Source of the DNA: Photobacterium sp. Ph5
GTDB taxonomy: Bacteria; Pseudomonadota; Gammaproteobacteria; Enterobacterales; Vibrionaceae
DNA length: 64,000 bases
Assembly: GCF_022129445.1 (NCBI RefSeq)
Contig: NZ_JADQAQ010000002.1
Span: 62,001 to 126,000 of the forward strand
Direction of reading: 5' to 3'
Under the pieces are notes generated by a model. That model saw nothing but the letters and a program-made list of their open reading frames with translations, was not told the DNA's origin and searched no databases. Below, in pieces: positions 45,810 through 50,089 of the stretch; positions within the stretch are counted from its first letter, which is position 1; every line of letters begins with the position of its first letter. Both the position numbers and the translations under genes were made by a program.

Positions 45810-46787
45810 ATGAAGATCGGATTTGTGCTCTATCATCGCGCCTTGATCACAGGAATATCACTGAGTGCTGAAATGCTTACCAGTGCTGCAAGTCTTCGTG
45901 ATCGAAAAAGCCAAAAAGCTCACCCTTTTGAAATAAAGGTGATTGCTCCCAGTCTAATATCACCCAAATTAACTGCAGGAATCCGTATTCAACCTGATAT
46001 TACATTTGATAATGATGACACGTTTGATGTCATTATATTACCGCCTATGTGGGGGAACCCATTAGCTTCACTCACCAAACACCCTGAAATTCCTCATTGG
46101 CTCATTAAACAATACCAAAACGGTGCTAAGATTATTGCAACCGGAACTGGAGTTGTTTGGCTTGCTGAGACTGGATTATTAAATGATCAAACTGCAACAA
46201 CTCACTGGTATTTTTACCAGAAATTCTCTCAATTGTATCCAAAAGTAAAACTCAATAAGCAGGCATCAATAACCTCTGCTAATGGCCTTTATTGTACTGA
46301 AAGTATTAACTCTCAAACCGAAATGGTGTTGTATTTCATTACTAATAATTTTGGTCAAAAGATAGCTAAAACAATAGAGACACATTACGGACATGAGATC
46401 AGTAAATCCGATCATCAACCATTTTATGAAATTGGGGGGCAAGTACAATTTGATGAATCAATTGCTTTAGCGCAAGACTGGATCAGACTCAATATGAGTA
46501 AGTCGATCACTGCAAAAAGTATCGCAGAGCATTGTCAATTACCCTTACGCACTTTCAATCGTAAATTCAAAGATCAGGTAGGACTGGCTCCTCATCAATA
46601 CCTTCAAAAGATGCGAATGACTACCGCAAAAGAACTCCTGCGCGATTTTGGAATGACAATCAATGATGTTTCAGAACAAGTGGGTTATAAAGATACCTAT
46701 CATTTCTCGACCATCTTTAAAAAAGAATTCGATGTTACTCCAAATCAATACCGTAAAATGGTAAGAGCAAAAGCTTATAATGCCTAA
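45810..46787 (+). CDS. GlxA-type transcriptional regulator (DJ-1/PfpI + AraC HTH)
   Basis: 325 residues. N-terminal DJ-1/PfpI-like sensor (MKIGFVLYHRALITG to about residue 190, with VIILPPMWGNPL and TGTGVVWLAETGLL, where the elbow Cys is replaced by Gly/Thr), then a C-terminal AraC-type double helix-turn-helix (SIAEHCQLPLRTFNRKFK and INDVSEQVGYKDTYHFSTIFKKEFDVTPNQYRK). Such regulators often control nearby catabolic genes; divergent orientation to fabY makes fabY a candidate target. Confidence 0.88.
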   Translation: MKIGFVLYHRALITGISLSAEMLTSAASLRDRKSQKAHPFEIKVIAPSLISPKLTAGIRIQPDITFDNDDTFDVIILPPMWGNPLASLTKHPEIPHWLIKQYQNGAKIIATGTGVVWLAETGLLNDQTATTHWYFYQKFSQLYPKVKLNKQASITSANGLYCTESINSQTEMVLYFITNNFGQKIAKTIETHYGHEISKSDHQPFYEIGGQVQFDESIALAQDWIRLNMSKSITAKSIAEHCQLPLRTFNRKFKDQVGLAPHQYLQKMRMTTAKELLRDFGMTINDVSEQVGYKDTYHFSTIFKKEFDVTPNQYRKMVRAKAYNA

Positions 46788-46823
46788 ACACATTTTAGGA
46801 CGGGATAATAGACACAAAAATGT

Positions 46824-46835
46824 ATGGTCCGCCTC
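46824..46835. repeat. Sub-terminal inverted repeat of the IS (transposase 3' side)
   Basis: ATGGTCCGCCTC, exact reverse complement of 48111-48122. Confidence 0.85.
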
Positions 46836-47048
46836 GTTATTGCAAATGCAAATTTCGATAACGAGGTTGGTTTGCGCTAATGTATTCGGAGTTTAATTGA
46901 AGTTAACTTACTTAAACTTCATCTCCACGATAAGCTCCGCGCCAGATAATCCTTAAAAAGCCGAAAGTGTATAATCACTGTTTTTTGTGTCAGGTCCTTT
47001 ATCTGGTGGTTTAACCGTTCTGTTATCTCTCTACACATGCAAATCTGA
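46836..47048 (-). ncRNA. Candidate bridge RNA / seekRNA of the IS
   Basis: Non-coding region after the transposase stop, on the same strand. On the minus strand it contains a hairpin at 46996-46951: outer CCT/AGG pair, internal loop with GACACAAAAAA on the 5' side and TCGGCTTTTT on the 3' side, and inner stem AGTG/CACT around ATTATA. The two loop strands match the two host flanks (see findings). A second stem, CCTCGTTAT (46832-46840) / ATAACGAGG (46858-46866), lies at the far end. IS1111 elements are known to carry their guide RNA downstream of the transposase gene. Exact ends of the RNA are unknown. Confidence 0.65.
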
Positions 47049-48061
47049 TTAATTCATTTTTCTAAATGGCAATCCAGTTACCATTACTGACCAAGCGATC
47101 CTTGCTAACTTATTTGCTAAGGCTACAACTACAACGTTAAATGGTTTTCGTTTTAATAATTCTGTTATCCAATCCCAAAAAATAGCTTCAGCTATTTTTG
47201 GCCTTGAAATCAGGGCCCTCGCCCCGTGAATAAATAATGTCCTTAATGACTTATTCCCTCGTTTACTGATACCCAATAGTGTGGATTTTCCTCCTGTTGA
47301 ATATTAACGAGGAACTAAACCCATCCATGCCGCTAGATGTCGTCCATTTTTAAAATCTTTTGGTGATGGTACTTCTGATAAACATGCACTCGCAATCATC
47401 GGTCCAATACCTGGGATAGTTTGTAATAATTCACCCATTTCTGATTCTTTCAAAACTGCTTTTATCTTTTTATCTTGCTCAGCAATCTTTTGATGTAAAT
47501 ATTGATAATGTTCATAAATAACAGCTAATTCTTGGAGCAAAAGCGGTGGTAAGGTGTAATTTTTATCGGCAAGCCACTGAAATAATTTCCCCATAGCCGC
47601 ATGCCCACGAGGAAAAGTGATACCAAACTCAAGTAGTAGTGCACCAATGCGACACATCGTTGCTGTTTGTTCTTTAATAAACCCAGAACGGATACGTTGT
47701 ACTGCAGATAAAATTTGGGATTCTTCAGTTTTGACACTAACAAAACGCATTGAAAGTCGAGTTGAAGCTTCAGCGATAGCATCTGCATCAATGTAGTCAT
47801 TCTTATTAGTTTTTACATAGGGTTTAACGTATTGAGGAGGGATTAGTTTGGTGTTATGTCCGAACTGTTGGCATTTTCTTGCTAGCCAGTGAGATCCGGC
47901 ACAAGATTCCATTGCCACAGTAGTTTTATCAAGTTGGAGCAATATTTTTAATAGTTGAGTACGGTTACATTTTTGCGATATACCTCACGGCCCGCATGAT
48001 CGTGTCCAATTAAATGAAATGAAGTTTTGCCTAAATCAATACCAAGTACTTTAATTAACAT
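47049..48061 (-). pseudogene. IS110-family transposase (DEDD), frameshifted and with internal stop
   Basis: Start ATG 48061 with AGGAGG 9 bases upstream. N-terminal RuvC-like catalytic domain: LGIDLGKTSF (first Asp), VAMESCAG (Glu), NKNDYIDADAIAEA (Asp pair). Transposase_20 domain: LLQTIPGIGPMIASACLSEV and HLAAWMGLVPR. Two lesions: an A5 run (minus-strand CGCAAAAATG, near 47971-47975) needs one more A to join VYRKK to the TQLLKILLQ frame, and TAA replaces a Gln codon between GLVPR and YSTGGKS at about 47305. The stop removes the C-terminal part with the serine nucleophile of the family. Unable to transpose by itself, though it could be moved by another copy. Confidence 0.85.
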
Positions 48062-48110
48062 GATGGTTCGCCTCCTAATACTCACAACTAAAGCCTAGCG
48101 GCTTTAGAGT

Positions 48111-48122
48111 GAGGCGGACCAT
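48111..48122. repeat. Sub-terminal inverted repeat of the IS (transposase 5' side)
   Basis: GAGGCGGACCAT, exact reverse complement of 46824-46835; lies about 50 bases upstream of the transposase start. Confidence 0.85.
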
Positions 48123-48128
48123 CTAATT

Positions 48129-48152
48129 AAGCCGAGTTAATTAACTCGGCTT
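48129..48152. terminator. deaD terminator hairpin, separated from its T-tract by the IS
   Basis: 24-bp perfect palindrome (AAGCCGAGTTAA and its complement TTAACTCGGCTT). In the plus direction it still has TTTTATTT. In the minus (deaD) direction it is now followed by AATTAG and the IS instead of T7; that tract is found on the other side of the element at 46816-46820. Confidence 0.8.
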
Positions 48153-48181
48153 TTATTTAGCAATCTAATTTAATAAATAAA

Positions 48182-50089
48182 TTATGCTTCTGTGCGAGGC
48201 TTACGATCTGTGCGAGGTGCACCATCGCGGTTGCCACGGTAACCACCACGTGTATCATTACCACGGTTACGGTCAAAACGACGTTCACCACCACGCTCAC
48301 CACCACGATTACCTTCACGATTACCACGGTAGCCACCACGGTTGCCGTCACGATTACCATCACGGTTGCCGCTACGAGGACGATGTTCACGAAGAACTTC
48401 GCCTTCAACAACTACTGCTTTAACATCATTTTGGCGAATGCGTAGTTTCTTAAGCTGAGAAGCCACTTCTGCTGTCATCTTCTTAGGAAGTTGAACAAAA
48501 GTATGTGTTGGAGCAAGTTTGATTGCACCAATGAACTCTTTGCTTAGACCTAGTTCGTTCGCGATTGCACCAACGATATCTTTAACCTGAACACCTTGCT
48601 CACGACCAACTTGTAACTGGTAAGTATCCCAGTCAGCATTGTTGTATGAACGACGTTCACCGCGCTCACCACCGCGCTCACGACGGTCGCCACGCTCACC
48701 GCGGTCACGATCGTTACCACGACGCTCACGGCGTTGTGATTCACGTTCGATAGCAGCGATCATTGGGTCTGGACCTTTATAGAATAAAGGACGGTTACCT
48801 TGCTGACGCTGAAGAAGCATTGCTGCAAGTGTTGCTGCATCAACATCGATTGACTCTTGTAGTTTTTCTACAAGTTCAACAAACGCTTCTACACTTGTTT
48901 GTTCTTTTTGTGCTGCTAGCTCTTCACCTAAACGGTTTAAACGAGATGCAGCAACTAAATCACGTAGAGGAAGTTGAATTTCTTCCATGCGAGACTTAGT
49001 AACACGCTCGATAGTACGAAGCATACGGATTTGGTTTGTGCGAACTAATAGAATCGCTTTACCAGCACGTCCTGCACGACCTGTACGACCGATACGGTGA
49101 ATATAAGATTCAACATCGAACGGAATATCGTAGTTAAATACGTGTGTAATACGTGGAACATCAAGACCACGTGCTACAACGTCAGTTGCAACTAGAATAT
49201 CAATAACACCACGTTTGATGTGATCAACAGTACGCTCACGTAGCGACTGTGGGATATCACCGTGAAGTGCCGCAGCTTTAAAGCCACGAGATGATAACCA
49301 ATCAGCTAGACGCTCAGTATCTTGACGAGTACGAACGAATACGATTGATGCATCTGTATCTTCAGTTTCAAGTAGACGACTCATTGCTTCGTCTTTCTCT
49401 ACGCCTTTAACAACCCAGAACTGCTGCTCTACTTTAGAAACAGTACGGTTTTCACCAGCAACGTCAATGCGTGCAGGGTTACGTAGGAAACGATCAACGA
49501 TTTCTTTAACGATTGGAGGCATAGTTGCAGAGAAAAGCACACGCTGTGCTGTTTCTGGTGCTTGTTCCATGATCCAAGTTACATCGTCAACGAAGCCCAT
49601 CTTCAACATTTCATCAGCTTCATCAAGAACAAAAGTATGTACTTCGTCTAGTTGAAGTTGCTTACGTGAGATAAGGTCTTTAACACGACCAGGTGTACCA
49701 ACAACGATGTGAGCACCGTTTTTAAGTGCACGCATTTGATCAACGATTGAAGCACCGCCGTAAATTTCAAGAACCTTTAGGCCTTTGATATTTTGACCAA
49801 GTACTTTAATTTCCGCAGCAACCTGAATTGCAAGCTCACGCGTTGGAGCCATAACAATTGCTTGTGGTTTGTGCTGAGATAAGTCAACTTTGTTTAGTAC
49901 AGGCAGTGAGAATGCTGCTGTTTTACCAGTACCTGTCTGCGCTTTACCAAGGGCATCAGTACCAGTTAGTAGTAGAGGTATAGACGCTGCCTGAATCGGC
50001 GTTGGCGCTACAAAGCCCATGTTGTCTAGTGCAGATAGAAGTGTGTCGGCCAAGTCTAGTTGGCGAAATTCTGTTACAGTTTCTTGCAT
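48182..50089 (-). CDS. deaD: ATP-dependent RNA helicase DeaD (CsdA)
   Basis: 635 residues from ATG 50089 (MQETVTEFRQLDLADTLLSAL), where the family begins; the open frame extends 26 codons further without support. Core: [80 protein letters not shown]. Residues about 470-560 form the DbpA-like RNA-binding domain (RREQGVQVKDIVGAIANELGLS region), and the tail is a Gly/Arg/Asn/Asp repeat (RGGYRGNREGNRGGERGG). DeaD helps 50S assembly and mRNA decay in the cold. The transcript ends at the hairpin split by the IS. Confidence 0.94.
   Translation of the reverse strand: MQETVTEFRQLDLADTLLSALDNMGFVAPTPIQAASIPLLLTGTDALGKAQTGTGKTAAFSLPVLNKVDLSQHKPQAIVMAPTRELAIQVAAEIKVLGQNIKGLKVLEIYGGASIVDQMRALKNGAHIVVGTPGRVKDLISRKQLQLDEVHTFVLDEADEMLKMGFVDDVTWIMEQAPETAQRVLFSATMPPIVKEIVDRFLRNPARIDVAGENRTVSKVEQQFWVVKGVEKDEAMSRLLETEDTDASIVFVRTRQDTERLADWLSSRGFKAAALHGDIPQSLRERTVDHIKRGVIDILVATDVVARGLDVPRITHVFNYDIPFDVESYIHRIGRTGRAGRAGKAILLVRTNQIRMLRTIERVTKSRMEEIQLPLRDLVAASRLNRLGEELAAQKEQTSVEAFVELVEKLQESIDVDAATLAAMLLQRQQGNRPLFYKGPDPMIAAIERESQRRERRGNDRDRGERGDRRERGGERGERRSYNNADWDTYQLQVGREQGVQVKDIVGAIANELGLSKEFIGAIKLAPTHTFVQLPKKMTAEVASQLKKLRIRQNDVKAVVVEGEVLREHRPRSGNRDGNRDGNRGGYRGNREGNRGGERGGERRFDRNRGNDTRGGYRGNRDGAPRTDRKPRTEA

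Follow-up and report, generated by a model that had tools for sequence, protein, structure and literature searches.

RNA-guided insertion by elements related to the one described here is already known, as far as the available text of PMC11187229 and PMC11208160 extends. For IS1111 of Coxiella burnetii, the founder of the group, the accessible part of PMC2104537 describes the chromosomal flanks as a target of stem-loop form that occurs at more than 50 places in the genome. A hairpin as target is therefore no novelty within the group. Settlement directly after rho-independent terminators is described for group IIC introns in the available text of PMC8919778. Among the matches listed for literature on IS110/IS1111 elements or transposases together with terminators, no title or abstract reported a terminator target, and the accessible parts of PMC9208149, PMC11187229, PMC12045711 and PMC2104537 do not call the target a terminator. 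It may tentatively be said that no terminator target has been reported, within a coverage that lacks most subscription work and ISfinder, and that perhaps no printed report identifies the target class as intrinsic terminators and explains it through the guide.

The window analysed here, a 64-kb stretch of DNA from Photobacterium sp. Ph5, contains a 1309-bp IS1111-group element at 46821-48129 on the minus strand. The main reading, to which a probability of about 0.9 is assigned, is that this insertion was guided by its own bridge RNA (seekRNA) into the U-tract of the deaD terminator, and that a guide spanning the border of stem and U-tract opens many terminators to such elements. Two convergent genes flank the element: an araC-type regulator, which ends at 46787 and has the Pfam domains HTH_18 and DJ-1, and a gene ending at 48182 that, judging from its sequence, we take to be the DEAD-box helicase deaD. 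It is the sole copy of its kind in its own genome. Its transposase gene (47049-48061, minus strand) is broken, with a frameshift of one base near 47970 and a TAA stop in frame at 47304-47306, and the copy is therefore probably immobile. The broken frame concerns activity and not kinship with the IS1111 group. Pfam PF01548 (DEDD_Tnp_IS110) and PF02371 (Transposase_20) were both found above cut-off on the transposase pieces, open-frame transposases are present among the relatives, and the transposase of an intact relative matches the solved IS621 and ISCro4 proteins by sequence. Two 12-bp subterminal inverted repeats, right (46824-46835) and left (48111-48122), are flanked on the minus strand by a 3-bp right-end extension, ACA (46821-46823), which fits the IS1111 rule given in the accessible part of PMC11187229, and by a 7-bp left-end extension, TAATTAG (48123-48129), placed by empty-site comparison. 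The non-coding ends measure 227 bp on the right, downstream of the transposase, and 61 bp on the left. Both domains, repeats in the expected range of ~11-13 bp, the 7/3-bp extensions and the long downstream non-coding region are those of the IS1111 group.

Empty sites were sought in 52 same-genus genomes, the element's own included, using the araC side as query; 20 loci were read, one of them its own. The uninterrupted locus in genome G048 reads ...CAATAGACACAAAAAAGCCGAGTTAATTAACTCGGCTTTTATTT and has GACACAAAAAAGCCGAG as the empty site within the deaD terminator, while G025 and G002 carry a slightly different empty site, AACACAAAAAAGCCGAG, before the same hairpin. Other sequence lies beside araC in the remaining 16 of the 19 relatives whose locus was read. 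The predicted empty site agrees at 16/16 bases in G048 and at 15/16 in both G025 and G002, and all three have six A's in the target. These sites fix the element ends at 46821 and 48129, without target duplication and with the six A's in the target. Insertion has split the deaD terminator hairpin, AGCCGAGTT-AATT-AACTCGGCT (48130-48151, minus strand; uninterrupted in the relatives), from its U-tract, the side of which remains as the host flank GACACAAAAA (46811-46820, plus strand). On the other side of the element, the host letters AGCCGA are found at 48130-48135. The preliminary description of this locus had joined the flanks into a junction with seven A's and had read the right flank as AAGCCGA at 48129-48135. 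Its junction matches the empty site apart from one A: the base at 48129 belongs to the element, and the rest of the right flank stands. Its further claim, that a terminator was the programmed target, agrees with the position of the empty site in the deaD terminator and with the hairpin detected at the junction.

The right end of the element contains a covarying RNA structure, the target loop of the guide RNA, at 46942-47006 on the minus strand. It is built from an outer stem (47006-46999/46949-46942), a CCU/AGG stem (46994-46992/46953-46951) and an inner stem (46979-46976/46969-46966). The focal right-end RNA folded alone gives this loop with a z of -1.6, so for a single sequence the fold is not by itself strong evidence. 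Across 17 sequences (the focal element and 16 relatives), however, 99.6% of cells are paired over 15 pairs, both sides have changed in 6 of these pairs, and covariation is 0.313, compared with 0.132 for shuffled controls and no more than 0.079 after sliding. The strands of the internal loop carry a first target guide, GACACAAAAAA (46981-46991, read 46991-46981), which matches the empty site at 11/11 positions, and a second, TCGGCTTTTT (46955-46964, read 46964-46955), which matches its opposite strand at 10/10; combined, they give GACACAAAAAAGCCGA, a site of 16 bp. An internal target loop in a structured RNA, together with two guides for opposite target strands, is what characterizes a bridge RNA or seekRNA. 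No Rfam family was matched at E up to 1 in a scan of 46300-48700, covering the element and its surroundings. The guide RNA would be transcribed and processed from the right end of the element. These results agree with much of the preliminary description: its IS1111-type assignment is borne out by the two Pfam domains, its guide sequences and left host flank (46811-46820) lie at the coordinates it gave, and its order and strands of the guides are those of a bridge RNA target loop. The hairpin that it drew at 46996-46951 is indeed the RNA target loop, but its extent was too short, the outer stem lying beyond it. It did not mention the broken transposase frame, the targeting common to multicopy relatives or the donor-like RNA segment.

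When the element was removed in silico and both strands of the window were scored with the focal guide pair, a 21/21 match was found once, at the insertion site; the next-best scores were 19 and 17, at one place each, in a scan that had no shuffled control. It could be argued that the agreement of loop and flanks is a coincidence of A/T-rich sequence, A-runs being common and the targets of the 83 other elements scored averaging 13.9/21 with the focal RNA. None of those targets reaches 21, and the single full match in 64 kb, the empty site found as predicted, the covariation of the loop and the own-target excess over 84 elements (a sample mostly from the best 80 of 571 relatives) make this reading highly improbable.

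The 84 elements were drawn from 130 loci, 80 of them from a public-genome scan by alignment of four transposases, from which the best 80 of 571 relatives were kept. The 130 loci comprised 118 with a repeat pair and 12 without; 24 with irregular ends, 9 duplicates and 1 with too short a flank were dropped. Within this best-80-of-571 sample, scored in a register taken from the focal element and with rows that are not independent (nine from genome G016 share nearly one RNA), the own target scored a mean of 16.5 compared with 13.4 for the targets of others, ranked outright first in 25/84 elements and had a median rank fraction of 0.024. The own target was not outright first in the other 59/84, partly because terminator targets resemble one another. 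The focal element gave the best fit and the only 21/21 in the same sample. Relatives with other loops were found at other, moderately matching targets (15-16/21; L066, L028 = L067, L097 and L099): L066 has the target GTACTC/TTTGACCC and the loop letters ACGGTCCAAA, and L067 has GCACTC/TTTGGGCC and GCACTCTTTT, the slash standing for the junction. The related elements L131-L152 match their own guides at 16-18/21, with guide and target both different from the focal ones; their target, TTTATT/TTCCGTTTTC, suggests that they are presumably of the transposon-end IS1111 kind, with the habit of IS4321/IS5075. On the right, nine of them (L131, L136, L137, L140, L142, L145, L146, L148 and L152) are flanked by a common sequence resembling TTCCGTTTTCTGAGACGACCCC, which we take to represent Tn21-like transposon ends.

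On the 3' side of the target loop, a conserved segment of the RNA holds the element's own 3-bp right extension and covaries with it across elements. In the focal element this proposed donor guide, GAATACATTAGCGC (46874-46887, minus strand), copies the right-end ACA. ATACAT accompanies ACA, ATAGAT accompanies AGA, ATATAT accompanies ATA and ATGTA accompanies GTA. For a motif chosen after viewing the sequences, 66 of 74 distinct RNAs contained it (8 did not) and 60 of these 66 matched their own 3-bp end; of the 6 that did not, 3 match at a second occurrence. Such behaviour is expected of a donor guide, and the segment probably pairs with the donor circle. Joining of the ends would also form a promoter-like TTGCAA-17-CATAAT, in which the -35-like hexamer TTGCAA (46840-46845, minus strand) meets CATAAT at 17-bp spacing only in the joined form.

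The two nearest copies found, both in genome G046, are 97-98% identical to the focal element over a 212-aa transposase piece, and each arm of their guides departs from the focal one at a single base. The first of the two lies at GGCT/TTTTTATA, with a score of 17/21 and no hairpin detected. The copy L025 (= L054), a 98% relative, scores 13/21 at its own target, with 70 of 83 other targets scoring as high or higher. Copies with the same loop at unrelated targets, which the preliminary description regarded as telling against it, are thus found in part, with guides one base off per arm. The junction of L054 falls where arm meets loop in a hairpin-like sequence, AAAAGGTC/TTTGTTATACAGACCTTTTT, a site for which its own guide does not account. 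The one-base differences in both G046 arms also raised the possibility of a change in the focal guide toward its own site. This idea was set aside because GACACAAAAAA is also present in the open-frame copies of Shewanella sp. (L108) and Alteromonas halophila (L098) and in three same-family genomes.

Terminators were scored with a detector that looks for a stem just 5' of the junction and T-rich sequence after it, with a loop limit of 12 (elements, own genome, three same-family genomes and focal window) or 14 (G316 background and tree). Its background was 21/6000 at random window positions, 10/4000 and 7/4000 in two other random sets, and 143/3000 at T-rich window positions. Insertion sites are enriched well above this: among the elements sampled from the best 80 of 571 relatives, the detector fired at 26/85 overall, at 12/23 in the close clade (at least 55% identity) and at 7/9 G016 copies. 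For the related multicopy element of the host's own genome, where 10 of 11 non-focal left ends were examined, a hairpin was found at 8/10 left ends, TTTTT starts 9/10 right ends, and a co-oriented reading frame precedes 10/10 left ends with its stop 36-63 bp upstream (52 bp for the focal element). The draft assembly breaks within this second IS1111-type element (L002-L021, mostly contig ends), and no assembled copy carrying its guide loop was found there. In three same-family genomes, 18/20 copies pass the detector and 19/20 follow a co-oriented frame within 110 bp; the pattern by which these copies were found includes the target part GGCTT, with up to 3 mismatches overall, and so favours GCT targets, not hairpins or gene direction. 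Copies L215 and L227 lie in the same terminator in genomes G316 and G168 with identical printed flanks, by shared descent or repeated insertion. The G316 copies L214-L225 differ in their second guide, TAGGCTTTTT or TGGGCTTTTT, so that guide variants coexist. A quick tree of 75 transposases, with one site per element and an imperfect detector, requires at least 18 changes of target class, which is only a hint that the class has changed repeatedly.

Whether guide matching accounts for this bias was examined in 400 kb of G316, where every position was scored with that genome's own guide, GACACAAAAAA/TGGGCTTTTT, which includes one of the two second-guide variants present. The scores of the 12 real insertions range over 17-20, and the detector fires at 11 of them; background positions are terminators in 19/24 cases at 17 or more, in 8/8 at 18 or more and in 29/88 at 16. 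Near-full pairing with a border-spanning guide therefore selects terminators without a hairpin rule, and matching to the guide can, as far as these scores indicate, largely explain the terminator bias. A recombinase or host factor might instead read the terminator hairpin itself, as folded DNA or RNA, with the guide match secondary. A hairpin does adjoin most copies in multicopy genomes, and the accessible part of PMC2104537 proposes a stem-loop as the recognition site of Coxiella IS1111. Loose matches in the focal window, scored with the focal guide, also seem to favour a required hairpin, scores of 14-16 being mostly non-terminator (3/18 terminators at 16, 3/3 at 17 or more), but the larger G316 background does not, since its sites scoring like real insertions are already terminators in 19/24 cases. 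Close relatives with other loops occupy non-terminator sites that fit those loops, and the copy L223 scores 18 with no hairpin detected. Hairpin reading is accordingly considered unlikely.

A slightly smaller chance still is given to the possibility that a short T-run is nearly enough for insertion and that selection against gene disruption leaves the survivors in intergenic terminators. In the G316 background, 43 of 112 sites scoring 16 or more are coding and non-terminator, and insertions there would tend to vanish. The 12 real insertions, however, score above most T-run sites, and targets differ as the guides predict: TTTTATTA follows the junction in G016 for the loop GATAATAAAAA, and TTTTTGT in the same-family genomes for the loop GACACAAAAAA. 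Selection against gene damage may nevertheless add to the terminator bias that the guide produces, and the data separate the two incompletely.

The left end carries a further structure. An inverted near-copy of the subterminal repeat (GAGGCGAACCAT, 48062-48074, minus strand) lies over the ribosome-binding site of the transposase, and a second hairpin (CTAAAGCC/GGCTTTAG) lies inside the left-end structure at 48062-48122 on the same strand. The transposase leader folds at -32 kcal/mol with a z of -5.5. Ten sequences were compared, the focal one and nine relatives picked from those sharing its repeat. Pairing holds in 90% of cells; a single position is unpaired throughout, another fails in 2/10, and no covariation was found. 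Read-through from the interrupted terminator would enter the transposase in its own direction, and the left-end hairpin could possibly shut off translation of the transposase from such transcripts. Protection of the transposase from outside transcription is a feature of IS10 and IS50.

In the proposed mechanism, a bridge RNA encoded downstream of the transposase would have held a two-part guide for the deaD terminator U-tract, its internal loop presenting GACACAAAAAA, which equals one target strand, and TCGGCTTTTT, which equals the other. A further segment, copying the element's own end, would probably pair with a donor circle. Such a circular intermediate, pairing of the RNA with donor and target, and catalysis by the DEDD recombinase would together complete the insertion. 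The guide spans the border of terminator stem and U-tract; in the host tested, nearly all near-full matches to a guide of this kind are intrinsic terminators, and because of this position one fixed guide would open many gene-sparing sites. Landing sites would mostly lie just after a gene, with the transposase in the same direction.

On balance, a wider reading is favoured for a clade of IS1111 elements from marine gammaproteobacteria, Vibrionaceae among them, with distinctly less confidence than the reading of the focal insertion. For this clade, terminators would be an RNA-guided target recognized by sequence alone, and a fixed border-spanning guide would offer a few hundred gene-sparing, co-oriented sites per genome, a figure extrapolated from 400 kb of one host, where 24 sites score highly. 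The hairpin of the left repeat with its near-copy over the ribosome-binding site would block read-through expression of the transposase, and the target class would have changed repeatedly in the wider family. In this natural case of a bridge-RNA element, the guide, the insertion site and the empty site are all legible. The case would add a generic, abundant and gene-sparing site to the REP sequences, attC sites and transposon ends already known as targets of the family, offer an explanation for at least 10 copies per genome without gene breakage, and point to a simple explanation of why the target of the founder IS1111 is a repeated stem-loop. The multicopy relatives, in which a single guide goes with varied sites, also form a data set on tolerance of guide mismatches.

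The closest described systems are the IS1111-group elements with a seekRNA, ISEc11, ISPa11 and ISKpn4. In the available text of PMC11187229 they share with the focal element a DEDD transposase, subterminal repeats, 7/3-bp extensions, a guide RNA downstream of the transposase, a promoter at the circle junction, and two guides that address opposite strands of the target, the match to the top strand lying upstream. Unlike them, as far as that text describes them, the focal element has an intrinsic terminator as its target, a broken transposase and an RNA predicted from its sequence. IS621 and its bridge RNA, in the accessible part of PMC11208160, resemble the focal element in an internal target loop that bears a left and a right guide, in the donor-matching RNA segment and in a recombinase homologous by sequence; members of the IS110 group differ in keeping the RNA upstream of the recombinase and in having no long subterminal repeats. 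Group IIC introns (PMC8919778, as far as available) are retroelement ribozymes, whereas the focal element would be a DNA recombinase with a bridge RNA, its frames holding only transposase domains and 46300-48700 giving no Rfam match; the resemblance would be at most a convergent strategy. Coxiella IS1111, compared by description only, has a stem-loop-type target like that of the focal element, which the accessible part of PMC2104537 presents without calling it a terminator and without considering a guide RNA.
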